Shown: positions 47,094-57,409, counted from the first letter of the stretch. The stretch: 64,000 nt of DNA from an uncultured Bacteroidota bacterium (GCA_902826215.1 CADEDY010000017.1:1-64000); one strand, 5' to 3'. Translations and numbers: made by a program. Notes: generated by a model from the sequence alone, not told the origin.

Positions 47094-47933
47094 TCACGGG
47101 TGATAGCCGTCCTGCTTGTAGGTCTTCATCTGTCCCTTGTGCTTGATGGGCGGCGGACAGTCGAAGCCTTTCCGCGGGCGGAGGAAGAGGAAGCGCACAC
47201 TGAGGATCAGCGGTCGGTAGTGGCTGTTGAACCATTGAAGTCGCCCGAAGCCCTCGTCCTGTGGAACGAACGAGAACACCGGGGTCTCCACTGCGGGGAT
47301 CACGAGCAACTTTCCGGTGACCTTGAATCCATAGCCGAGCTTGACGTGGGCTTGGGCGATCAGATCCGGTGGGTAGGCATGCTGCGCCGTGAACGGTTCC
47401 AAAGGCACGGTGTAACTGCTACCGATCCGATAGTCGGCATTGGCACCCAAACTGAGCTGGATGAACTGGTAGTCGCGCACTTGGAAGAACTTGTTGGCAT
47501 TGACGTGCAGGGTGACGAAGCGTTCCGCGAAATCTCCTTCACCACTGAAGGTGCCGACCGAATCGGCGCGCGCGTAATTGCTCTCGAAGGCTTCGGAACC
47601 GCGCAGGTTCTTGTAGGCCAGCCCGACATCCCAATAGTCGAGTATCACCGGATCGCGCGTGGCGTAGAACCAACCGGCCTCGAGGTACAAACCAAGCCGA
47701 CCGTTGGGATCGTACGTGGCCGTATAGGTGGTATCCGCACTGCGATAGACCTCTTCCTCGGAATTCTTGCCTCGCGGCAACGTGTAGGTCACGCCTGGAG
47801 CAAAGTAGAACCCACCGCGCCGCGCCTGCCCTTCCAGCGGAATGATGTCGGGCCGTTTGCGCTGCATCAGCCGCTGCGACCAACCCGGCAGGGTGATCAT
47901 CATAAGCAACACCAAAGAGAGGAACCGTTCCAC
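47094..47933 (-). CDS. Predicted outer-membrane protein of unknown function
   Basis: 279 residues from GTG 47933, which gives a signal peptide (VERFLSLVLLMMITLPGWSQ); the frame is open to 47993 with an ATG that would add 20 residues. The mature part shows alternating strands with many aromatic residues (GGFYFAPGVTYTLPRG, LGLYLEAGWFYATRDPVIL, GFKVTGKLLVIPAVETPVF, LILSVRFLFLRPRKGF), consistent with an outer-membrane barrel. The C-terminus has a basic Cys-containing tail (GFDCPPPIKHKGQ). I do not recognise the family. It is convergent with the MBL gene. Confidence 0.65.
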   Translation of the reverse strand: MERFLSLVLLMMITLPGWSQRLMQRKRPDIIPLEGQARRGGFYFAPGVTYTLPRGKNSEEEVYRSADTTYTATYDPNGRLGLYLEAGWFYATRDPVILDYWDVGLAYKNLRGSEAFESNYARADSVGTFSGEGDFAERFVTLHVNANKFFQVRDYQFIQLSLGANADYRIGSSYTVPLEPFTAQHAYPPDLIAQAHVKLGYGFKVTGKLLVIPAVETPVFSFVPQDEGFGRLQWFNSHYRPLILSVRFLFLRPRKGFDCPPPIKHKGQMKTYKQDGYHP

Positions 47934-48098
47934 AGCGTCGAAATTGAGGATTCGCACCTTATACGAACGCAGTGCAACCATCGAAAGTGTCAACGCTGAA
48001 GTGTGCGTTGCGGCCCTGACCCGTTACCGGACCGGAAAATTGCGGAACCACGTAGCGCCATCATTCCGAAGCGCCGTACCGTACTTTTCCGCACGGCG

Positions 48099-48665
48099 AT
48101 GGGCAACTTTCTACGCAACACATTCTTGGGCCGTGTGCTCCAAGGGGATCGCAGGCTCGGCTGGTTCTTCTGTGCGTTCGCCTTTGTTCAGGTTGTCGCG
48201 CAACTGCTCACTGCCGAGGTGACCCCGTTCTTTCTGTTCGGCATGTATTCGGATCCGATCCATCCCTCACCCACCTACGTGCGCATGCGATGCGAAGTGG
48301 ATGGCGCCACGATCACGCAAGAGCAATTGCCGCGCTATGCCGGAGAATTGTTCTTCAGCACCTTGTACCGGTTCGAACAGTTGGATGCGAATGAGAATGA
48401 GGATCTGTTCCTGCCATTCATCGAAGAGCGATTCGGATGGTTTCCAGAGGAAACCAAGAACGCACTGAACGAACGGTTGGCCTACGACCCGAAGAACGAA
48501 CATGCTTTCGGCGAATGGATGATCCGCTACCTCTCCCGATCACTGGATCGGCCGATCGGCGAGGTGATCGTGGAACGTGAGACCTATCGTTACGAGGGCC
48601 AACGACCCATACTGGTGGAAACAAAAGAATTGATCACTGCGCATGCCGCCGTCGCTCAACCGTGA
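48099..48665 (+). CDS. Predicted membrane-anchored protein upstream of the HTTM-like gene
   Basis: 188 residues from ATG 48099 (a GTG at 48003 is open in frame). One TM helix near residues 15-35 (WFFCAFAFVQVVAQLLTAEV) with the rest presumably outside the cytoplasm, including PTYVRMRCEVDGATITQEQLPRY and a C-terminal strand ERETYRYEGQRPILV. No named family. The downstream gene starts 23 bases before its end, so both are cotranslated. By analogy with other paired HTTM proteins it may be an auxiliary subunit. Function unknown. Confidence 0.6.
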   Translation: MGNFLRNTFLGRVLQGDRRLGWFFCAFAFVQVVAQLLTAEVTPFFLFGMYSDPIHPSPTYVRMRCEVDGATITQEQLPRYAGELFFSTLYRFEQLDANENEDLFLPFIEERFGWFPEETKNALNERLAYDPKNEHAFGEWMIRYLSRSLDRPIGEVIVERETYRYEGQRPILVETKELITAHAAVAQP

Positions 48666-49506
48666 CCAATTCGACGTGTTGACACGGGTCTTCTTCGGAT
48701 GGATCCTGTTGGCCTTGATCTGGCGTTGGCACGATGGCGCCATGCTGTCGCAATTGGAAGCACCCGTGCTGGGCAATGTGTACAAGGACCTCACCTTCTG
48801 GGGGGTCGAACTGCTCGGCCTACCGGCCTATCTCACGAGCCACTGCTGGGCGGGCATCCTGCTGGATAGCGCAATGACCGCAAGTGTTCTCGCCATGATC
48901 CTGCTACCACGAAGCGTCCTTCTCGCCCGCCTTTACTGCGCAACGATCCTGGTCTACTTCATTGTCCATACCACCTACGCCAATCATCATTACCGACCGA
49001 TCATCGGTTTGCTTCTGGCGGGTGTACCGTTCATCTTCCGATCGCTGGATCGCAACAACTTCACCTTTCAAGCGGTGCGCTACTACGTGTTATTCGTGTA
49101 TTCGAGTGCCGGTTTGTACAAAGTGTTCCGTGGCTCTTGGTTGAACCTGGATCAGATGACCGGCATCATCGAGAACACGCAATTGGAATTGCTGCTGGCG
49201 CATCCTGATGGTTGGCACGCGCAGTTGTTCACATGGCTTCTGCAACATGAGCCGGTCAGTTGGGCGCTCTTTCTCTTGGCCACGCTCATGGAACTCGTGT
49301 TCCTGATCGGCTACTTCACGCGCCGCTTCGACCCATGGCTCTTCGCCACGGCCATGAGCCTGCACATCGGCTTCTACTTCACCATGCGCTTCTTCGCCTT
49401 CGAGCTGATCGTATTGGACCTGACCTTGTTGCCGTGGGAGCGGATACTCCAGCGCTTCAAGACCGGTGAGCCGATCGCGACACGACCGACGCCGATCAGT
49501 GGATGA
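48643..49506 (+). CDS. HTTM-like multi-pass membrane protein
   Basis: 287-residue membrane protein with about six to eight TM helices. The pattern of helices (WILLALIWRWHDGAMLSQL, LYCATILVYFIVHTTYANHHYRP, YVLFVYSSAGLYKVFRGSWLN, GYFTRRFDPWLFATAMSLHIGFYF) resembles HTTM/VKGC-related proteins, whose best-known member is vitamin K-dependent gamma-carboxylase. Bacterial HTTM proteins are poorly understood. It overlaps the end of the preceding gene by 23 bases and its 3' end overlaps the convergent YHYH gene by 11 bases. Confidence 0.65.
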   Translation: MPPSLNRDQFDVLTRVFFGWILLALIWRWHDGAMLSQLEAPVLGNVYKDLTFWGVELLGLPAYLTSHCWAGILLDSAMTASVLAMILLPRSVLLARLYCATILVYFIVHTTYANHHYRPIIGLLLAGVPFIFRSLDRNNFTFQAVRYYVLFVYSSAGLYKVFRGSWLNLDQMTGIIENTQLELLLAHPDGWHAQLFTWLLQHEPVSWALFLLATLMELVFLIGYFTRRFDPWLFATAMSLHIGFYFTMRFFAFELIVLDLTLLPWERILQRFKTGEPIATRPTPISG

Positions 49507-50863
49507 CCTCCACGCGCTTCGTCAACACCTGATCCCCATTACCGATCCGCACGATGTACTCGCCATCATGTAGCGTACGGGTATCGAGATGCCAGATCGT
49601 GCTTCCCTGAACGATCACGGTCTGCCGCACCGTGCGACCGACCCTATCGACGAGGCTCACTTGGAGATCACCGCGCAGAATACCGCTCACCTGGATCGCC
49701 ACTAGATCGACGGCCGGATTGGGGAATACGGAAACGCTCACCGAGCCATCCTCCAAGTTCACCACGCCGGTCGACAGCGGATCGTAGGTCTCTACGGATT
49801 CCGTAATGGAAGTGACCTTACTCGCGGTCCGCACACCGTAGAACGTGGGACCGACCACATATGGGTAGGCGGAGTTCCAGTTCTCATCCACGGTGCAGAA
49901 ATAGGCGTAGGTGCCATCGGGGTACTCCGGGGTCACGCAGAAGCGACCGTTGTGCTCGTCCAGATAGTAGGGCTCAACGTGGCTTACGAATTCGTAATCC
50001 TCGCGGAAATAGCCACGTACGTATTGAGCGAAGGTGGGCCCCACAGGCGTTGCGGCGGCACCGCTGGGCAAGGTGGTACGATCGGGCGTGGAACCCAATT
50101 GATAGCTCGACCGCATCCGTTCTATACCGCCGGTCCCATCGGTATTCGCGAAGCCAAAGGCACCGTAGATCGGGAAACCGTCGTAGGCGTAGCCGATCAA
50201 TGGAGAATGCTGCCCAGCGTCGATCACGTACAGTCCATCAGCAGGGTACAGGTCGCAGACGTTCGAGATCACAGCCAGGTCCAAGTTGAAGGCGCTGGGA
50301 TTCTGGTGATGGTGGTAGTTTCCCATGGCCGGATGCGCTTTGGCACAATCGAAACCGGGTCGCTCTGCTGGAATGGCATCGCGGTTCCAGGTCTGCGTGG
50401 CTCCCATTCCACCCGGACAAGGCGGATTACCCGGTCCACCGCACAGTGCCGTGCCGCTCCATGCGACACCATCGCGGTAATCGAACAAGGACACTCCATT
50501 GATGAACACGCCGATATTCCCTCCGGTAGTGGCCATGGGCGTTCCGGTGTTCTGTACCGGCACTCGCGGAAAGCGATAGATCGCGCTCTGGTCCGTGGCG
50601 ATCGATGGATTACCGTCTTGAAAAGGGCCCGTGATGTAGGCCGGAATGCCATGCGTGCTCACGTACGCCCAGTTGTTGGAATACTGCACCGCCTGCACAT
50701 TGGCCAATACGTTGTCCTGGATCGGCGTTGGGTTCCCGGCGACGTAATGTTGCCCCATGATCCCCGTGGTATTGATCAGCCAGTTCGTGACGACGGGATC
50801 CGTCTGAGCGAAGGACGTGAGGCATGCACCGAAGAGGGCGAGGGTCAGCAGTTTCCGTTCCAT
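49496..50863 (-). CDS. YHYH-domain secreted protein with T9SS type A sorting domain
   Basis: 455 residues from ATG 50863 (an in-frame ATG at 50908 adds 15). Signal peptide (KLLTLALFGACLTSFAQ), a YHYH-domain region (NYHHHQNP near residue 185, GYAYDGFPIYGAFG, EHNGRFCVTPEYPDGTYAYF), and a C-terminal T9SS sorting domain (FPNPAVDLVAIQVSG, then HDGEYIVRIGNGDQVLTKRV). The YHYH domain is of unknown biochemical role; it often lies next to MbnP/MbnH-like genes. Located 63 bases after the peroxidase gene and probably cotranscribed with it. It is the T9SS-exported member of the metal-linked cassette. Confidence 0.85.
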   Translation of the reverse strand: MERKLLTLALFGACLTSFAQTDPVVTNWLINTTGIMGQHYVAGNPTPIQDNVLANVQAVQYSNNWAYVSTHGIPAYITGPFQDGNPSIATDQSAIYRFPRVPVQNTGTPMATTGGNIGVFINGVSLFDYRDGVAWSGTALCGGPGNPPCPGGMGATQTWNRDAIPAERPGFDCAKAHPAMGNYHHHQNPSAFNLDLAVISNVCDLYPADGLYVIDAGQHSPLIGYAYDGFPIYGAFGFANTDGTGGIERMRSSYQLGSTPDRTTLPSGAAATPVGPTFAQYVRGYFREDYEFVSHVEPYYLDEHNGRFCVTPEYPDGTYAYFCTVDENWNSAYPYVVGPTFYGVRTASKVTSITESVETYDPLSTGVVNLEDGSVSVSVFPNPAVDLVAIQVSGILRGDLQVSLVDRVGRTVRQTVIVQGSTIWHLDTRTLHDGEYIVRIGNGDQVLTKRVEVIH

Positions 50864-50926
50864 GAGCGGGATCGTTGGGTGGAGGTTTGTCTGGTTGGAC
50901 GACATCAATTCGGGAATCCTTCGCGC

Positions 50927-51949
50927 TCACTCCCGCGGGTAAGCATGTTGCGGGTCGAAGCAGAATTCCTTGTCCGTCAATGTGAGCAGGAAGGCGTACA
51001 GGTCGGTGCGTTCATTCTTCGTTAACGGGATGCCTCCGCGCAGCGCGGGCGACAGTGTAGGGCTGGTCTCGATCCCTTCGGCATAGTGGTCCAGCACATT
51101 GCGCAAGGTCTTGAACCGCCCGTCGTGCATGTAAGGGAACGAGAACTCCACGTTCCGCAGGGATGGGATCTTGAACAGGCGTTCATCCTTCAGGTCGCCG
51201 CTGATCTTCATTCGACCCATGTCCTGATGTACCGTATCCAGCGAAAGCCCGTTGTTCGCGAATTCACCGGTGGTGAAGAGGGGTTCACTGTGGCAGCTGC
51301 TGCAATGGGTTCGGAAGAGCTCGTAGCCGACCGACTCCTGATCCGTGAACGCTTCGGAGCCCGCCATCACCCGATCGTACTTGGTATTCGCCGAGATCAG
51401 GGTCATCTCGAATTGGCTCAAGGCCTTCAGCAACCGTTCACCCGTGATCCTACCATCGCCGAATGCGGCCTCGAACAACTTGGGATACATGGTGGTGCGC
51501 TGCAGCTTGGCCACCACATGGGCGGTCTCCTCCCCCATTTCGTCCGGGTGGTTGATCGGTGCCAAGGCCTGCATGTCCAGGTGGTTCATCGCACCGTCCC
51601 ACATGAAGGTCTTGCTCCAGGCAAGATTGGACAGCGCCATGGAATTGCGTGTGCCGATGCGGTCATTGACCCCGTGGCTGACCGCGTGATCCACGTGCGT
51701 GAAGGCCGTGTACGAAAGGTGGCAACTGCTGCAGGACACGATGCTATCCGAGGACAGGATGGGGTCGTAGAACAGCCGGCGGCCCAATGCGATGCCTTCA
51801 GCGGTGAGGGGGTTCTCTTCGAGGTCGTACGTGATCGCGGGCCAACCGGCAGGCACCTTCAGCGTCACCGGAGTAGGCGTACGTATCGTTGCTGCGACCA
51901 GCACGAATGCCGCCAGCCCTGCACCAACGATGCCCCCCCTGACCCTCAT
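50927..51949 (-). CDS. Diheme cytochrome c peroxidase (MbnH/MauG-like)
   Basis: 340-residue diheme c-type protein. ATG 51949 (MRVRGGIV) overlaps the MbnP stop (ATGA). A TM/signal helix (GAGLAAFVLVAATI) is followed by two CSSCH heme sites, one near residue 75 and one near residue 212. SKTFMWDGAMNHLDMQALAPINHPDEMG and LFKIPSLRNVEFSFPYMHDGRF are CcpA/MauG-family landmarks. MbnH is known to oxidize a Trp of MbnP to kynurenine, creating its copper site, in methanobactin operons. Here the partner MbnP gene is directly upstream. A plain peroxide-scavenging CcpA role is the alternative. Confidence 0.9.
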   Translation of the reverse strand: MRVRGGIVGAGLAAFVLVAATIRTPTPVTLKVPAGWPAITYDLEENPLTAEGIALGRRLFYDPILSSDSIVSCSSCHLSYTAFTHVDHAVSHGVNDRIGTRNSMALSNLAWSKTFMWDGAMNHLDMQALAPINHPDEMGEETAHVVAKLQRTTMYPKLFEAAFGDGRITGERLLKALSQFEMTLISANTKYDRVMAGSEAFTDQESVGYELFRTHCSSCHSEPLFTTGEFANNGLSLDTVHQDMGRMKISGDLKDERLFKIPSLRNVEFSFPYMHDGRFKTLRNVLDHYAEGIETSPTLSPALRGGIPLTKNERTDLYAFLLTLTDKEFCFDPQHAYPRE

Positions 51950-52629
51950 CGGTCCATCGTGAAACAAGCAGCCGCGATCCGTGCCAGTCGAACCGCATTG
52001 TCACTGGGCGACATCACCGTGCATTCCACGGCAAGGTCAACACCGTCGAGCAGCCTGGCTACATCGACCTGCACGTCCAAGGGCACATCCTTGGGTACCG
52101 CAAGGCCCACCCATTGTGCGTTGAAGTGCGGAGGAAGAAATCCACCCAAGTGGAATTGGAACATATTGCCTTTGGTCGTGCACTTCGCACACTCCCCTTC
52201 CAGCTTCAGGTTGATGTAGCCGCTGTTCCAGGTCCAGTACATGCCGGTTGTAGGATCAAGACCTCCGCCGTGCACACCGCTCACGTTGGTGATACTGTCC
52301 ACACCGAGCAGAAAGCGGATCGAATCGACGCTCTCCCTCTCGACCAACGGCAGTGCGAGCTCCCAGCTTGACCTGTTCGAAGCGTCGATCAGATGACTGG
52401 CCGTATCCGATGACACCGCGCGCCCGTTCGCGAAGAGCGCAAGGTGGCTTACGTAGAAGCGGAACTGGGTCACGCTCACTTCGGTCCCGTCGGAAAGCAC
52501 CTGTTGATCTTCGAGCACAAAAGGCTGACCGTTGAAACTCGGTGTGAAGCGAACGACCGATGCGGAAGTTTGCGCGCCAGCGCAATATGCGAACGCGATG
52601 AAAAGGGTCGTGGCCCAAGCATGCAACAT
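51946..52629 (-). CDS. MbnP family copper-binding-type protein
   Basis: 227-residue secreted protein. Signal peptide (LFIAFAYCAGAQ). The MbnP pattern is seen in VTQFRFYVSHLALF, then GVHGGGLDPTTGMYWTWNSGYINLKLEGEC (residues ~125-150, two Trp in the YWTW stretch) and MFQFHLGGFLPPHFNAQ. MbnP from methanobactin operons binds copper with kynurenine made by MbnH. Cysteines CAKC suggest a second metal or disulfide site. Cotranscribed with the diheme peroxidase that follows. It begins four bases after the Spy/CnrX-like gene ends. Confidence 0.87.
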   Translation of the reverse strand: MLHAWATTLFIAFAYCAGAQTSASVVRFTPSFNGQPFVLEDQQVLSDGTEVSVTQFRFYVSHLALFANGRAVSSDTASHLIDASNRSSWELALPLVERESVDSIRFLLGVDSITNVSGVHGGGLDPTTGMYWTWNSGYINLKLEGECAKCTTKGNMFQFHLGGFLPPHFNAQWVGLAVPKDVPLDVQVDVARLLDGVDLAVECTVMSPSDNAVRLARIAAACFTMDR

Positions 52630-52632
52630 GGC

Positions 52633-53091
52633 TCAATGCGGTTTCCGCCGTGGACCATTGAATAGCCCGGCCAGGTCATCCACCAAGTCCTCGAACAGGG
52701 GCATCTGGTCGGCACGGCACAGATCGCGGATCGCCCTGAAATGGGCCAGATGTGTAGACTCGATCGTCCGTTCCACCTCGGCGATCACGGCGAGCAGCGA
52801 GTCCTGCACGAGCGGTTCCGCACTCTTCAATCCTTGGAACAAGAGCTCACGGTCCTTCATCTTGCGTCCATCCAAGCGGTCGATCGCTGCGCGATGCTCC
52901 TTGATCAACGCTTCGTAGGCCTTGACCTGATCGGCATCGAAGTGCAGGCGCTCGATCACGATCGCCTTCGGACCTTCTCCACGAGGTGGCCCATGATGTC
53001 CGGGTCGTCCGAAATACAGAGCGCTCAAGGCTCCGATATTCACCAGGACGAGAACGACCACCGCAATGGTCAGCAGCTTCACCTTGGTCAT
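52633..53091 (-). CDS. Spy/CpxP/CnrX-like periplasmic metal-sensor protein
   Basis: 152-residue protein anchored by an N-terminal TM helix (LLTIAVVVLVLVNIGALSALYF), with a helical-bundle periplasmic domain. The segment after the anchor has metal-friendly residues (GRPGHHGPPRGEGP). The helical part reads LHFDADQVKAYEALIKEHRAAIDRLD and continues with long amphipathic helices. The layout matches the family of Spy/CpxP chaperones and CnrX-type heavy-metal sensors (CnrX is 148 residues). Overlaps the preceding small TM gene by four bases and the MbnP gene follows three bases later. Its ligand is unknown; copper is the context-based guess. Confidence 0.8.
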   Translation of the reverse strand: MTKVKLLTIAVVVLVLVNIGALSALYFGRPGHHGPPRGEGPKAIVIERLHFDADQVKAYEALIKEHRAAIDRLDGRKMKDRELLFQGLKSAEPLVQDSLLAVIAEVERTIESTHLAHFRAIRDLCRADQMPLFEDLVDDLAGLFNGPRRKPH

Positions 53092-53396
53092 GGGTACAAG
53101 TGGTTATCAACCTGTAGACCTACCGATGCCGCGATCCGCTCTGCTCCTTCGGAATTCCCATTCGACACCCCGCGTACCACCAGGACCGAATTCACCACCA
53201 GCACCAACATGATCGACAGCGCCATGGCCGCGACCCAGCTACGGGAGGGGCGTTCGCCGCTTCGTGCCGCAAGACGCGCTTCGATCCGCGTGAGCAGAAA
53301 AGGCGGGGGATCCACCCGTTCCACCTTATCCAACAAGTTCATTCCGCGTGCGCTCATGGTGTCTTTCAATGGGTTCGACGACATTACATCCTTCAT
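53088..53396 (-). CDS. Small single-TM protein, putative CnrY-like anti-sigma factor
   Basis: 102 residues. About 55 cytoplasmic residues (a basic stretch LLTRIEARLAARSGER), one TM helix (SWVAAMALSIMLVLVVNSVLVV, about residues 53-75), then about 25 periplasmic residues. No classical zinc-binding anti-sigma (ZAS) motif is present. Size and topology are those of CnrY-type anti-sigma factors (about 95 residues), and it lies between an ECF sigma factor (overlap of four bases) and a CnrX-like gene (overlap of four bases). The role as anti-sigma factor is inferred from topology and position. Confidence 0.65.
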   Translation of the reverse strand: MKDVMSSNPLKDTMSARGMNLLDKVERVDPPPFLLTRIEARLAARSGERPSRSWVAAMALSIMLVLVVNSVLVVRGVSNGNSEGAERIAASVGLQVDNHLYP

Positions 53397-53923
53397 CCTT
53401 CGCTCCTCTCCAGCTCATCCTGCAATTTCCGTCTCGCTCGGGAGAGCAGCGATTCCACCGCCTTCGCGGACACGCCCATCACCTCGGCGACCTCGTTCTG
53501 CGATAAACCCTCCATGGTCTTCAGCAGCAAGGCCGTGCGCTGTTGTTCAGGCAAGGCGTTGACCCTTTTGAAGATCCGTTCGGTGGCTTCGCGGTGCTCC
53601 AGTTGCACACCGGGGTGATCGAAGGCGGAACCCGGCACCTGCTCCGCCAGATCATCGTGGCTGCGGAACAAGTTGAACAACGAACGCTTCTTGCGCTTGC
53701 GTGCCTTCACATGATCAAGACAGCAATTGATCGCGATCCGATAGATCCACGTCCGCAACGCCGCTTCGGCCCGGAACTCGCCGAGCCCGTCATGCGCCTT
53801 CACGAACGCATCTTGCGTGACCTCCTCCGCCTCCTCGCGGTTCTGCACATAGTTCAAGCACAGGTTGAACACCATGCGCACATGGCGGTCGTAGACGTTC
53901 TTGAATGAATGCTGTTCGGCCAT
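53393..53923 (-). CDS. ECF-type RNA polymerase sigma factor of the MbnP/MbnH cassette
   Basis: 176-residue sigma-70 family ECF factor. Region 2 at about residues 10-80 (VYDRHVRMVFNLCLNYVQNREEAEEVTQDAF and TWIYRIAINCCLDHVKARKRKK). Region 4 at about 120-170 (LPEQQRTALLLKTMEGLSQNEVAEVMGVSAKAVESLLSRARRKL). Basic linker KARKRKKRSLFNLF. First gene of a six-gene minus-strand unit, overlapping the small TM gene by four bases. A TACTTTCG box at 53972-53965 (one mismatch to TAnnTTTG) lies about 42 bases upstream. By position it should control the metal-linked genes behind it. Confidence 0.92.
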   Translation of the reverse strand: MAEQHSFKNVYDRHVRMVFNLCLNYVQNREEAEEVTQDAFVKAHDGLGEFRAEAALRTWIYRIAINCCLDHVKARKRKKRSLFNLFRSHDDLAEQVPGSAFDHPGVQLEHREATERIFKRVNALPEQQRTALLLKTMEGLSQNEVAEVMGVSAKAVESLLSRARRKLQDELERSEG

Positions 53924-54163
53924 GCCCCGGTCGATCCTCAGTAGACTGGGACAACGCTGGGCCTCGAAAGTAGAATGGACCTGCCGAACGAAAACGGATC
54001 ATAGGAATTCCAGCAACCCAGTGCCTTCCGTTACACCTCCTCATTCTCCCACTTCTCCAGATGCCCGGCAAGGCAAGCACCGCCTCCAGCATGCGGTCTT
54101 GGTCAAGGATAGTCCAACTTCACCTCCTCTGTTGTCAGTTCCTACTCAGATCTTGAGCTTTGG

Positions 54164-54661
54164 TCAGTACTTGTACACCTTAAGCTCGTGATCAACGTAA
54201 GAGGCGTTCGTCATTAGTCTTTGATGTGACGCGCTATCCGCAGAGAGCGGTAGTGCGATCAGGATCCGAAATAGGTCAGTGTCCAGTTCTTGATCGAAAT
54301 CACCGATCATCACGGTTTCGCCATCATCGAGTGAATAGGACAATTCGTATGTCAACGCATCAAGGACTCGGAACCTGATAGGGCGTTCCAGAAGCCGATC
54401 ATCCATCTTGGAGACGGACACGTCGAACGTTGACTCCTTTATGGGCGATTTCTTGAAACGCCCCGCGAGGAAGTATGCAACATGGTACCCGTGCTTACCT
54501 GCTGACGAGAGCGAGTCCATCAGTAGGGAGATACGCTTCGCTGATGCACGTTGTTCTTTGACCTCCGCACTTACGCAGGAGGTGGTTCCCGTGATGATGA
54601 ATAACAGATTCATCCCAACAGCCGATCGCACTAACAACTTTCGCCAATCAGTATTGATCAT
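54164..54661 (-). CDS. Putative lipoprotein of unknown function
   Basis: 165 residues. N-terminal helix RSAVGMNLLFIITGTTSC could be a lipoprotein signal, though the lipobox (TTSC) is atypical. The mature part has alternating charged/hydrophobic strands (FKKSPIKESTFDVSVSKMD, YELSYSLDDGETVMIGDFDQELD). No family recognised. It is somewhat less GC-rich than neighbouring genes, especially near its 5' end. The 240-base gap 53924-54163 next to it shows nothing except the weak sigma-gene promoter box. Confidence 0.5.
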   Translation of the reverse strand: MINTDWRKLLVRSAVGMNLLFIITGTTSCVSAEVKEQRASAKRISLLMDSLSSAGKHGYHVAYFLAGRFKKSPIKESTFDVSVSKMDDRLLERPIRFRVLDALTYELSYSLDDGETVMIGDFDQELDTDLFRILIALPLSADSASHQRLMTNASYVDHELKVYKY

Positions 54662-54706
54662 CCAAATAGACGCATGAATTTGTCATGTGGTCTTGAAACC
54701 ATAGCG

Positions 54707-56050
54707 TCACACCTGCTCCAACAACCCCAACACCTTCATCTCCACTTCCTCGCTCTCCCAACGTTCAGCGATATCGGGCATGGCCAACACCTCCTCCATG
54801 ATGCGATCGTGGCGCAGGCCTTCGTTCCACGCATCCACGTATGGGGTGTCGGTGAACTTCACTTGGCTGTAGAGCGGCAGCCACTTGTCGGGGTGCTTTG
54901 CTTGCATGCGCCCTTCGATCTTCTTGCGCAGGATGAAGCGTGGATCGGCAACCAGGTCGCGCATCTCGACGAAGTTGCGGAGGGATAGGTCCGCGATGGC
55001 GTCTCCGTTGGGCTTGCGGGCGGCGTTGTACGCATCGAGCACAACGCCCCAATTGTCATCGCCGTGGTCGTTCAGCAGGTCGTTCAACACCTTGCAATCC
55101 TCGTAGCCGGCGTTCATGCCTTCGCCATAGAAGGGCACGATGGCGTGGGCCGCGTCGCCGATCAGTGCCACCTTGTCGGTATGCGTCCACGGGCCGCAGC
55201 GGATGATGGCCAGGTTGCTCTGCGGATTGCGGAAATACTGCTCGGTAAGGTCGGGCAGCATGGGGATGGCATCCGCGAAGTGGGCCTCGAAGAAGCGCTT
55301 GAGGTCCTTCTCATCCTTGATGCCATCGAAGGAGAACTCGCCGGAGTGCGGCATGAAGAGCGTACCGGTGAAGCCGCCATCCTGATTGGCGAGGCCCATC
55401 ATCATGAAGTAGCGCCGCGCCCAGATGTGCAGGCAATTGGGATCCATCTGCGGCGTGCCATCGGCATTCGGCGGAAAGGCGATCTCCTTGTAATCGTGCT
55501 CGATGTACTCCTGGCTGAAGTTGAAACGGCCTTTCATCATCTCTTGCCGCACGGCGCTGGGCGCACCATCGGCGCCGAAGACGACATCGGCCGTCACGGC
55601 CACATTCTCCCCATTCTCCTCGTTGTGGAATGTGCAGGTCGCGGTATCGAGATGGACGCTCGTGCAGCGATGATCGAAATGCACGGTCACATTCGGATAC
55701 TTATCGGCTTCGGAAAGCAGCACCTTGTTCAACTCGCCGCGGCTCACGCTGTGGATCGGCCGACCATCAATGCTGTACGGTAAGCGTGTCAACTTTCCAT
55801 CGCGGTCGTGCGTCATGCGCGCATGCACGGGTACCACGATGCGCTCCACCGCCTCCTTGACACCAGCGGCCTTCAAGGCGGTCCAACCGCGATGGCTCAC
55901 CACCAGGTTGATACTGCGACCTGCGTAGACGCTTGCCTTCCGGGGATCGGAGCGACGCTCGTACACATGGACCGCGTGTCCACGCTTGGCCAGGAATACA
56001 GCGAGCAGACTTCCTACGAGCCCACCTCCAACGATGGTTATTTGTTTCAT
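54707..56050 (-). CDS. kmo: Kynurenine 3-monooxygenase
   Basis: 447-residue FAD-dependent hydroxylase that converts L-kynurenine to 3-hydroxykynurenine, using NADPH and O2. FAD motif ITIVGGGLVGSLLAVFLAKRG at the N-terminus; second FAD motif VALIGDAAHAIVPFYGEGMNAGYED (GD motif) near residue 300. YAGRSINLVVSHRGW and LPYSIDGRPIHSVSRGELN match KMO. C-terminal helices form the usual membrane-contact tail. The kynU gene lies directly upstream in transcription order with a hairpin-rich 78-base spacer. With kynU it forms 3-hydroxyanthranilate, a route to NAD; the dioxygenase is not in the window. Confidence 0.95.
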   Translation of the reverse strand: MKQITIVGGGLVGSLLAVFLAKRGHAVHVYERRSDPRKASVYAGRSINLVVSHRGWTALKAAGVKEAVERIVVPVHARMTHDRDGKLTRLPYSIDGRPIHSVSRGELNKVLLSEADKYPNVTVHFDHRCTSVHLDTATCTFHNEENGENVAVTADVVFGADGAPSAVRQEMMKGRFNFSQEYIEHDYKEIAFPPNADGTPQMDPNCLHIWARRYFMMMGLANQDGGFTGTLFMPHSGEFSFDGIKDEKDLKRFFEAHFADAIPMLPDLTEQYFRNPQSNLAIIRCGPWTHTDKVALIGDAAHAIVPFYGEGMNAGYEDCKVLNDLLNDHGDDNWGVVLDAYNAARKPNGDAIADLSLRNFVEMRDLVADPRFILRKKIEGRMQAKHPDKWLPLYSQVKFTDTPYVDAWNEGLRHDRIMEEVLAMPDIAERWESEEVEMKVLGLLEQV

Positions 56051-56065
56051 TTCAACATGCGTTAA

Positions 56066-56124
56066 GTCGACCCTCCCGGCTCCAGGCCGGGATGACAGGG
56101 TCGACGCTACAGGTGACCTGTAGC
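56066..56124. repeat. REP-like nested hairpin element between kynU and kmo
   Basis: Two adjoining inverted repeats. The first has an outer arm GTCGACCCT (56066-56074) pairing with AGGGTCGAC (56097-56105) and an inner hairpin TCCCGGC/GCCGGGA (56074-56080 with 56086-56092). The second is a perfect 9+1+9 palindrome, GCTACAGGT-G-ACCTGTAGC (56106-56124). The minus strand contains GTCATCCCGGCCTGGAGCCG, the same kind of sequence as dispersed hairpin repeats in other genomes. It could act as attenuator or mRNA-end stabilizer for the two-gene operon. Confidence 0.7.
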
Positions 56125-56128
56125 GAGA

Positions 56129-57409
56129 TCAGTGCGAACCGGCGAGGCATTCCTTCAAGATCTGTCCGAAGCGCCACACATCTTCGAATGAATTGTACAT
56201 CGGTACAGGGGCTACGCGGATGACGTTGGGTTCTCGCCAATCTGCAACAACGCCGAGGCGGGTGAGTTCATCAAAGAGGCCTTTTCCATGGCCATGGGCG
56301 AGGATGCTGAGTTGACAACCGCGTTGTGCAGGATCGTTCGGTGTGATCACTTCGAGCCGGGTGCCTGTTTCCTTGGCCACCTCCGCGATGATGAACGCTA
56401 AATACCCGGTGAGTACTTCGCTCTTTGCACGCAAATTCGAGATGCCCGCCCGGTCGAACTGCTCTAGTGCCACGCGGTGCAAGGCCATGCTGAACACGGG
56501 CGCGTTGCTCACCTGCCAAGCTTCGGCCGTGGGCATGGGCTTGAAGGTGCGTTCCATCTTGAAACGCTCCTTCTTGTCGTGGCCCCACCAGCCGGCGAAA
56601 AGTGGAAGTCCCACGCCCAAGTGACGCTCATGGACGAAGGCCCCGGCAACACTCCCCGGACCGCTGTTGAGGTATTTGTAGCTGCACCAGCAGGCGAAAT
56701 CCGCGTTCCAATCGTGCAGCTTCAGTTCCAGATTACCTGCAGCATGTGCGAGATCGAATCCAGCGATCGCACCAACCGCATGCGCGGCCTTTGTGATCGC
56801 GGCCATGTCGAAAGCCTGTCCCGTGTAGAAGTTGACGCCGCCGAAACAGACCAGCTCGAGTTCATCGCCGAGCTCGTCGATCTTGGCAAGGATGTCCACG
56901 GTCCGTAATGTGTGCTCACCAGTGCGAGGCTGCACTTCGACCAGGTCCTTTTCCGGATCACCACCGTGAAAAGTGATCTGCGATGCGAACGCATAGGTAT
57001 CACTTGGGAAGGGCCGCGTTTCTGTGAGGATCTTCCGGCGCTTTCCAGAGGGCCGATAGAAACTCACCATCAGGAAATGCAGGTTGCTGGTGAGTTGGTT
57101 CATCACCACCACCTCCTCGTTCTTCGCTCCGACCAAGCGCGCGGCGCTAGCCGTAAGCTCTTCGTGATAGCTGAGCCAAGGGTGCATCGCGTGGAAATGA
57201 CCCTCCACTCCGAACCGGGCCCAGTCGTCCAATTCCTGCTTCAGGGCGCCAGCAGCAGCCTTTGGTTGGAGGCCAAGTGAGTTACCGGTGAAATAGACCA
57301 CAGGTCGGCCATTGTGTTGAGGGAACAGGAACTCGTCCCGGAAGGCGCGCAAGGGGTCGGCCGCATCGAGGGCTTGGGCGAAGGCCGCATCGTTCTTGAA
57401 AGTGCTCAT
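56129..57409 (-). CDS. kynU: Kynureninase
   Basis: 426-residue PLP enzyme that cleaves (3-hydroxy)kynurenine to (3-hydroxy)anthranilate and alanine. Signature GNSLGLQPKA near residue 42; HAMHPWLSYHEELTASAARLVGAK; PLP lysine in WCSYKYLNSGPGSVAGAFVH; LAHAAGNLELKLHDWNADFA before it gives the Asp contact. C-terminal NVIRVAPVPMYNSFEDVW is typical. First gene of the kynU-kmo unit, with a promoter box immediately upstream. Length is normal for bacterial kynureninase. The start ATG 57409 lies close to the expected transcript start. Confidence 0.96.
   Translation of the reverse strand: MSTFKNDAAFAQALDAADPLRAFRDEFLFPQHNGRPVVYFTGNSLGLQPKAAAGALKQELDDWARFGVEGHFHAMHPWLSYHEELTASAARLVGAKNEEVVVMNQLTSNLHFLMVSFYRPSGKRRKILTETRPFPSDTYAFASQITFHGGDPEKDLVEVQPRTGEHTLRTVDILAKIDELGDELELVCFGGVNFYTGQAFDMAAITKAAHAVGAIAGFDLAHAAGNLELKLHDWNADFACWCSYKYLNSGPGSVAGAFVHERHLGVGLPLFAGWWGHDKKERFKMERTFKPMPTAEAWQVSNAPVFSMALHRVALEQFDRAGISNLRAKSEVLTGYLAFIIAEVAKETGTRLEVITPNDPAQRGCQLSILAHGHGKGLFDELTRLGVVADWREPNVIRVAPVPMYNSFEDVWRFGQILKECLAGSH

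Follow-up and report, generated by a model that had tools for sequence, protein, structure and literature searches.

A conserved Bacteroidota cassette placing a CnrYXH-like sigma factor module before genes for MbnP-family, MbnH-like and YHYH-domain proteins

Described systems and layout of the cassette

CnrYXH of Cupriavidus metallidurans, a system for sensing cobalt and nickel, consists of an extracytoplasmic function (ECF) sigma factor, a single-transmembrane (TM) protein of approximately 100 residues and a membrane-anchored periplasmic sensor of approximately 150 residues. MbnP-MbnH pairs, found in methanobactin operons and elsewhere (MopE/SACCP, CorA/CorB), place a copper-binding-family protein with a WxW motif beside a MauG-like diheme enzyme. 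In this study, components like those of both systems were found together in a window of 64,000 nucleotides from an uncultured Bacteroidota bacterium (GCA_902826215.1, CADEDY010000017.1:1-64000), in a cassette of six genes designated S, A, X, P, H and Y. The original prediction had placed six minus-strand genes here, and all six open reading frames (ORFs) were present where it put them:

S, 53393..53923, minus strand: ECF sigma factor of 176 residues with Sigma70_r2 and Sigma70_r4_2 (35 homologues aligned)
A, 53088..53396, minus strand: single-TM protein of 102 residues, candidate anti-sigma factor by its topology and weak anti-sigma matches
X, 52633..53091, minus strand: membrane-anchored periplasmic four-helix protein of 152 residues, candidate metal sensor of the CnrX/Spy/CpxP superfamily
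P, 51946..52629, minus strand: MbnP-family protein (PF20243) with a signal peptide and the WxW-type motif MYWTW
H, 50927..51949, minus strand: MbnH/MauG-like diheme enzyme of 340 residues from ATG 51949 (CCP_MauG, TIGR04039)
Y, 49496..50863, minus strand: YHYH-domain protein (PF14240) of 455 residues from ATG 50863, with a signal peptide and a C-terminal sorting tail of the type IX secretion system (T9SS)

Genes S and A overlap by 4 nt (53393-53396), as do A and X (53088-53091), and X and P are separated by a 3-nt gap. For H and Y, ORF finders called earlier TTG codons; ATG 51949 and ATG 50863 were preferred because the homologues align to them, most beginning there. With these starts, P and H overlap by 4 nt and 63 nt lie between H and Y.

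The arrangement has a precedent in part. MbnP-MbnH pairs are found well outside the methanobactin producers, and some that stand isolated lie near MbnI/MbnR genes (PMC3621798, 2013); MbnPH-like genes also occur in copper-related operons (PMC9426467). In Methylosinus, MbnI/MbnR (FecI/FecR type) place an ECF sigma factor and a membrane anti-sigma factor next to MbnPH, resembling S and the candidate anti-sigma factor A here, and some of these sets stand away from methanobactin operons (PMC3621798). The original prediction, which knew of no described sigma module joined to MbnP-MbnH in the absence of methanobactin, was too strong on this point, since these Methylosinus loci had been reported. MbnI/MbnR, however, rely on a TonB-dependent transporter, together with a FecR protein, to convey the signal, whereas the cassette has a Spy/CnrX-fold sensor, a small new anti-sigma candidate and no transporter. 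Compared with the MbnP-MbnH pair alone, it adds Y as a recurrent third partner and CnrX-like control, and no methanobactin genes were recognised among its neighbours. The cassette differs from CnrYXH in gene order (S-A-X against cnrY-X-H) and in output, which is RND (resistance-nodulation-division) efflux for CnrYXH and copper-protein families here. A published account of a CnrX-like relay with MbnP-MbnH was not found in literature of which the key part was only partly covered, so that an earlier description is possible; searches for YHYH with copper or a sigma factor, and for a heavy-metal sensor with a sigma factor, gave nothing relevant.

Recurrence, co-evolution and outputs of the modules

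A profile search with MbnP over public genome contigs yielded 80 loci from named organisms, mostly metagenome-assembled genomes (MAGs), which were distributed among Chitinophagaceae, Saprospiraceae, Lewinellaceae, Crocinitomicaceae, Flavobacteriaceae, Sphingobacteriaceae and Cytophagaceae, with one Kapaibacterium and one Ignavibacteria MAG. The order S-A-X-P-H-Y was observed in 19 of the 80, and in 2 more with a second Y, 17 being strictly contiguous. Neolewinella persica (L104) carries the cassette with a few genes intervening between P and H. Another relative order was seen at a single locus, where an unrelated sigma gene lies approximately 6 kb downstream. The median overlap across loci was 4 nt at each of the A/X, X/P and P/H joins. 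When all genes around P were clustered (82 loci), the six cassette genes ranked first, in 81, 79, 59, 36, 34 and 27 loci; no seventh associated gene was found, the next-ranked cluster occurring in 8 of 82. Because the same order recurs in distant genomes whose cassette proteins are only 26-60% identical on average, it is not due to chance. The original prediction had proposed looking for this order in Bacteroidota, and it is kept across many families there. The cassette is real and widely conserved; its parts are of known kinds and their combination seems undescribed.

Protein distances were correlated over the 25 loci having S, A, X, P and H. After removal of the effect of H, the correlations were 0.52 for S-A, 0.69 for S-X and 0.53 for A-X. 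The corresponding S-P, A-P and X-P correlations were 0.12, 0.01 and -0.09, and P and H correlated with each other at 0.55. These results indicate two co-evolving units, S-A-X and P-H, as would be expected if a relay of three parts were combined with an enzyme and its substrate. A single origin of the S-A-X association was tried on the P tree and found unsupported (18 changes versus 24.9 in shuffles), on a tree that is poorly resolved and with L066 wrongly scored as lacking S-A-X owing to an overlapping ORF.

Across 395 genomes of the class, a search recovered 66 strong X genes; P followed immediately in 31 cases and lay within 12 kb in another 9, the other 26 X genes being elsewhere. Away from P, nine S-A-X modules were followed in turn by genes for a short YHYH protein, for one with MORN repeats and for SCO1 (one module without a detected A, and one in which X alone was recognised), and one X context led into a multicopper oxidase and AhpC. 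Several members of the group near P had CotH, multicopper oxidase or AhpC between X and P, with multicopper oxidase/AhpC in 2 of the 9. As read from the gene lists, genes for MbnP, MauG-type, YHYH, SCO1 or multicopper oxidase proteins lay downstream in approximately 55 of the 66 contexts. By manual count, such families were within three genes downstream of the module in approximately 25 of 36 contexts and within two genes upstream in approximately 3 of 36. The genes that S-A-X precedes, YHYH-MORN-SCO1 and, at three loci, multicopper oxidase, point to copper; copper is the common theme of the S-A-X outputs, and nickel or cobalt is not.

The YHYH-MORN-SCO1 set (L188, L190, L191, L194-L197, L201 and L208) is a second recurrent S-A-X output and may constitute a further, as yet undescribed, copper cassette. 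At L184, L183 and L213 the S-A-X operon includes a multicopper oxidase, T9SS-tailed in L184, together with an AhpC/redoxin gene.

Component proteins

S scored 63 bits with Sigma70_r2 and 61 bits with Sigma70_r4_2. Among solved structures, RNA polymerase sigma-H factor (6in7; 82 bits) was ahead of CnrH (62 bits); judged by these scores, S is a generic ECF sigma factor to which CnrH is not the nearest relative.

No Pfam family was matched by A, either with the window protein or with 27 homologues, and PF17524 was likewise unmatched in this set, hhalign giving a probability of 0.9% for similarity to CnrY. Homologues have approximately 90-100 residues, the TM segment being residues 56-74 in the window protein, and Lys/Arg was commoner before this segment than after it in 28 of 28, giving an N-in topology. 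Conserved features were a motif before the TM segment (DPPPFLLTRIEARL in the window protein, (A/P)PPFL-TRI in the family) and NxLY near the C-terminus. The short N-terminal segment followed by a single TM helix fits the CnrY type. According to structural studies cited in PMC7406223, two helices of CnrY wrap around CnrH, and the segment in A would be of a size to wrap its sigma factor in the same way. In Bacteroidetes, only approximately 6% of ECF sigma factors are accompanied by class I anti-sigma domains (PMC7406223), and for some of the remainder the A family offers a concrete candidate means of control.

X matched Pfam Metal_resist at E 0.0012, below the cut-off, and this model matched 12 of 34 X homologues. 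By sequence, the X profile reached Spy at 4.7e-5 and NccX/CnrX only marginally, and CnrX from pMOL28 aligned to X along most of its length. The AlphaFold2 model (mean predicted local distance difference test score, pLDDT, 90.1) displayed an N-terminal membrane helix at residues 2-27 and a four-helix domain. CnrX and NccX topped the Foldseek list obtained with this model, at modest E-values of 0.02-0.07. VIA-align gave a Z of 12.0 over 105 residues for CnrX, 9.0 for CpxP and 8.7 for Spy; as helical bundles give a high background and their Z scores below approximately 13 need caution, the ordering counts more than the absolute values. On the predicted model, X resembles CnrX more than Spy or CpxP. 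Among X homologues H66 was invariant, with H117 in 92% and C125 in 84%.

P scored 131 bits against PF20243 (cut-off 27). Residues W132, W134, M130 and H160 were found in 100% and M206 in 98% of 81 homologues. Since a WTW-containing pattern had helped to select the first P set, conservation of WxW was examined again in P genes reached by way of X, and M-[YF]-W-x-W was present in 28 of 28. No MbnP structure in PDB was reached by sequence search with P. H scored 178 bits against CCP_MauG, and its best PDB match was 6e1c (MbnH). The two CxxCH haem sites were conserved in 99-100% of H homologues and in 30 of 30 H genes from the X-recruited set. Tyr295 of H, present in 97% of homologues, aligned with Tyr in 6e1c and with Met in the peroxidase 3o5c. 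H has the MauG/MbnH features, namely two CxxCH sites and a Tyr replacing the Met ligand of classical peroxidases. Manesis et al. reportedly described in 2021 that MbnH forms kynurenine on MbnP in Methylosinus, with His and Met as MbnP copper ligands; by analogy, H may form kynurenine in P. Y scored 183 bits against PF14240 and 33 bits against Por_Secre_tail, and the motif NYH[HY]HQNP was conserved in 31 aligned homologues. No fold is claimed for Y, whose AlphaFold2 model was poor (mean pLDDT 44.6).

Proposed relay, alternatives and neighbouring genes

The most likely function of the cassette, regarded here as rather probable, is a trans-envelope sigma relay on the CnrYXH plan that responds to copper and drives a set of copper proteins. 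X would be anchored in the inner membrane with its Spy/CnrX-fold sensor domain in the periplasm, and A would be a small single-pass anti-sigma factor tethering S to the membrane. The signal would start as a change in X, most likely the binding of copper around H66/H117 and possibly C125; passed on to A, it would free S, which may then transcribe its own operon. Among the outputs, P would be a secreted copper-binding protein of the MbnP family; H, as a diheme enzyme of the MauG/MbnH type, may convert the first Trp of the WxW of P to kynurenine and so complete the copper site; and Y is predicted to be a surface or secreted protein exported by T9SS. Taken by analogy, the relay architecture is well supported, copper moderately, and the direction of the response not at all yet. 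It is nearly an even prospect that S-A-X represents a widespread, undescribed class of periplasmic copper sensor in Bacteroidota, one that pairs a CnrX-fold protein bearing a remodelled metal site with a new family of small anti-sigma factors and governs copper-protein cassettes that include a kynurenine-made copper site and a T9SS surface partner. Because a candidate controlling sensor lies in the same operon, and the operon could be activated by removing a single small gene, the cassette offers a genetic handle on the role of MbnP-MbnH outside methanobactin producers and on the function of YHYH proteins.

Several findings weigh against this interpretation. The CnrX metal ligands, which we take from the CnrX structures to be H42, H46, E63, H119 and M123 (these residues were confirmed at those positions), are reduced in X to one of five, H119 being kept as H117 and the other four replaced. 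With this and its own invariant His, X is CnrX-like and not CnrX; metal binding is a candidate property, and if X works like CnrX it would at most do so through a different metal site. Proteins of the Spy superfamily can also sense unfolded protein rather than metal. A resembles known anti-sigma factors weakly, two NCBIfam anti-sigma models matching 9 of 28 and 8 of 28 members (best 2.9e-6), and the regions upstream of 65 S genes yielded no common promoter motif, k-mers and spaced dyads there being essentially no better than shuffles. P and H diverge from the NCBIfam equivalogs: P scored 36.6 bits against TIGR04052 (cut-off 140), a model that nevertheless matched 24 of 24 P homologues at E <= 0.001, and H scored 222 bits against its best match, TIGR04039 MbnH (cut-off 363). 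By these scores, P is a relative within the wider MbnP family and not the equivalog. Finally, the other large group of loci has P-H-Y without S-A-X, which is absent from approximately half of the P-H-Y loci with sufficient upstream sequence; P-H therefore also works under other control, and control by S-A-X is optional for a P-H-Y output that is itself common. The interpretation in the original prediction is thus partly supported. Its likeness to CnrH/CnrY/CnrX stands insofar as the trio acts as a unit and the fold of X is closest to CnrX; the trio is not orthologous, given that A has no detectable similarity to CnrY, four of five ligands are gone, S is generic and the gene order differs. Its reading of the cassette as a copper-oxidizing surface system is conjectural.

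The match of X to Spy, by sequence and by structure, together with AhpC and CCP-type genes in some operons, would also suit a response to envelope stress, in which a Spy/CpxP-like X detects periplasmic proteins that are misfolded or oxidised, and the functions driven by S-A-X are repair and peroxide handling (peroxidase H with partners P and Y) with no metal response. This is unlikely, as the fold of X is closer to CnrX, the invariant H66 and H117 look like ligands, the outputs are mostly copper-linked families and Tyr295 of H is of the MauG/MbnH type, where classical peroxidase 3o5c has Met. Sensing of nickel, cobalt or zinc as in true CnrYXH, with P-H-Y in a non-copper role, agrees with the architecture and fold of CnrX and is highly improbable: the replaced CnrX ligands include Met123, which is needed for nickel/cobalt signalling (PMC7689651), the outputs belong to MbnP, SCO1 and multicopper oxidase families, and neither RND efflux nor any other additional gene cluster was associated at comparable frequency. 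Within the copper-responsive relay itself, the signal could be starvation, with apo-X freeing S and P-H scavenging copper. The similar pair CorA/CorB of Methylomicrobium is lowered by copper (PMC3621798), but CnrX frees its sigma factor upon metal binding (PMC7689651) and related operons carry multicopper oxidases, in keeping with copper excess, which makes this sub-case a possible though somewhat doubtful one.

Three of 45 genomes of the same genus carried the cassette: the window genome, G014 and G016, in the last of which it is split over two contigs. The window genome has X once, and the sole clear match of A there was the cassette itself. In the window genome and G014 the cassette is flanked on one side by a kynurenine 3-monooxygenase-like gene and on the other by a conserved gene (47094-47993 in the window); in G016 it is near the same monooxygenase-like gene. 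These two flanking genes are <250 nt apart in at least 10 other genomes, and the interval between them (47994-54706 in the window) is variable, reaching several kb in others. Kynurenine 3-monooxygenase-like and kynureninase-like genes (54707-57409, named by eye) stand just upstream of a cassette possibly making protein-bound kynurenine, which is probably coincidence. A functional link to these neighbours was dropped, the monooxygenase being an old neighbour of the slot that is present where the cassette is absent. MbnP paralogues across the genus (L002, L007, L013 and L019) are often beside one or two MauG-type genes, S-A-X not being there in the loci read. On pMOL28, a tiny gene annotated as YHYH domain-containing (L203:12905-13027) adjoins cnrYXH; the name it shares with PF14240 may be accidental.

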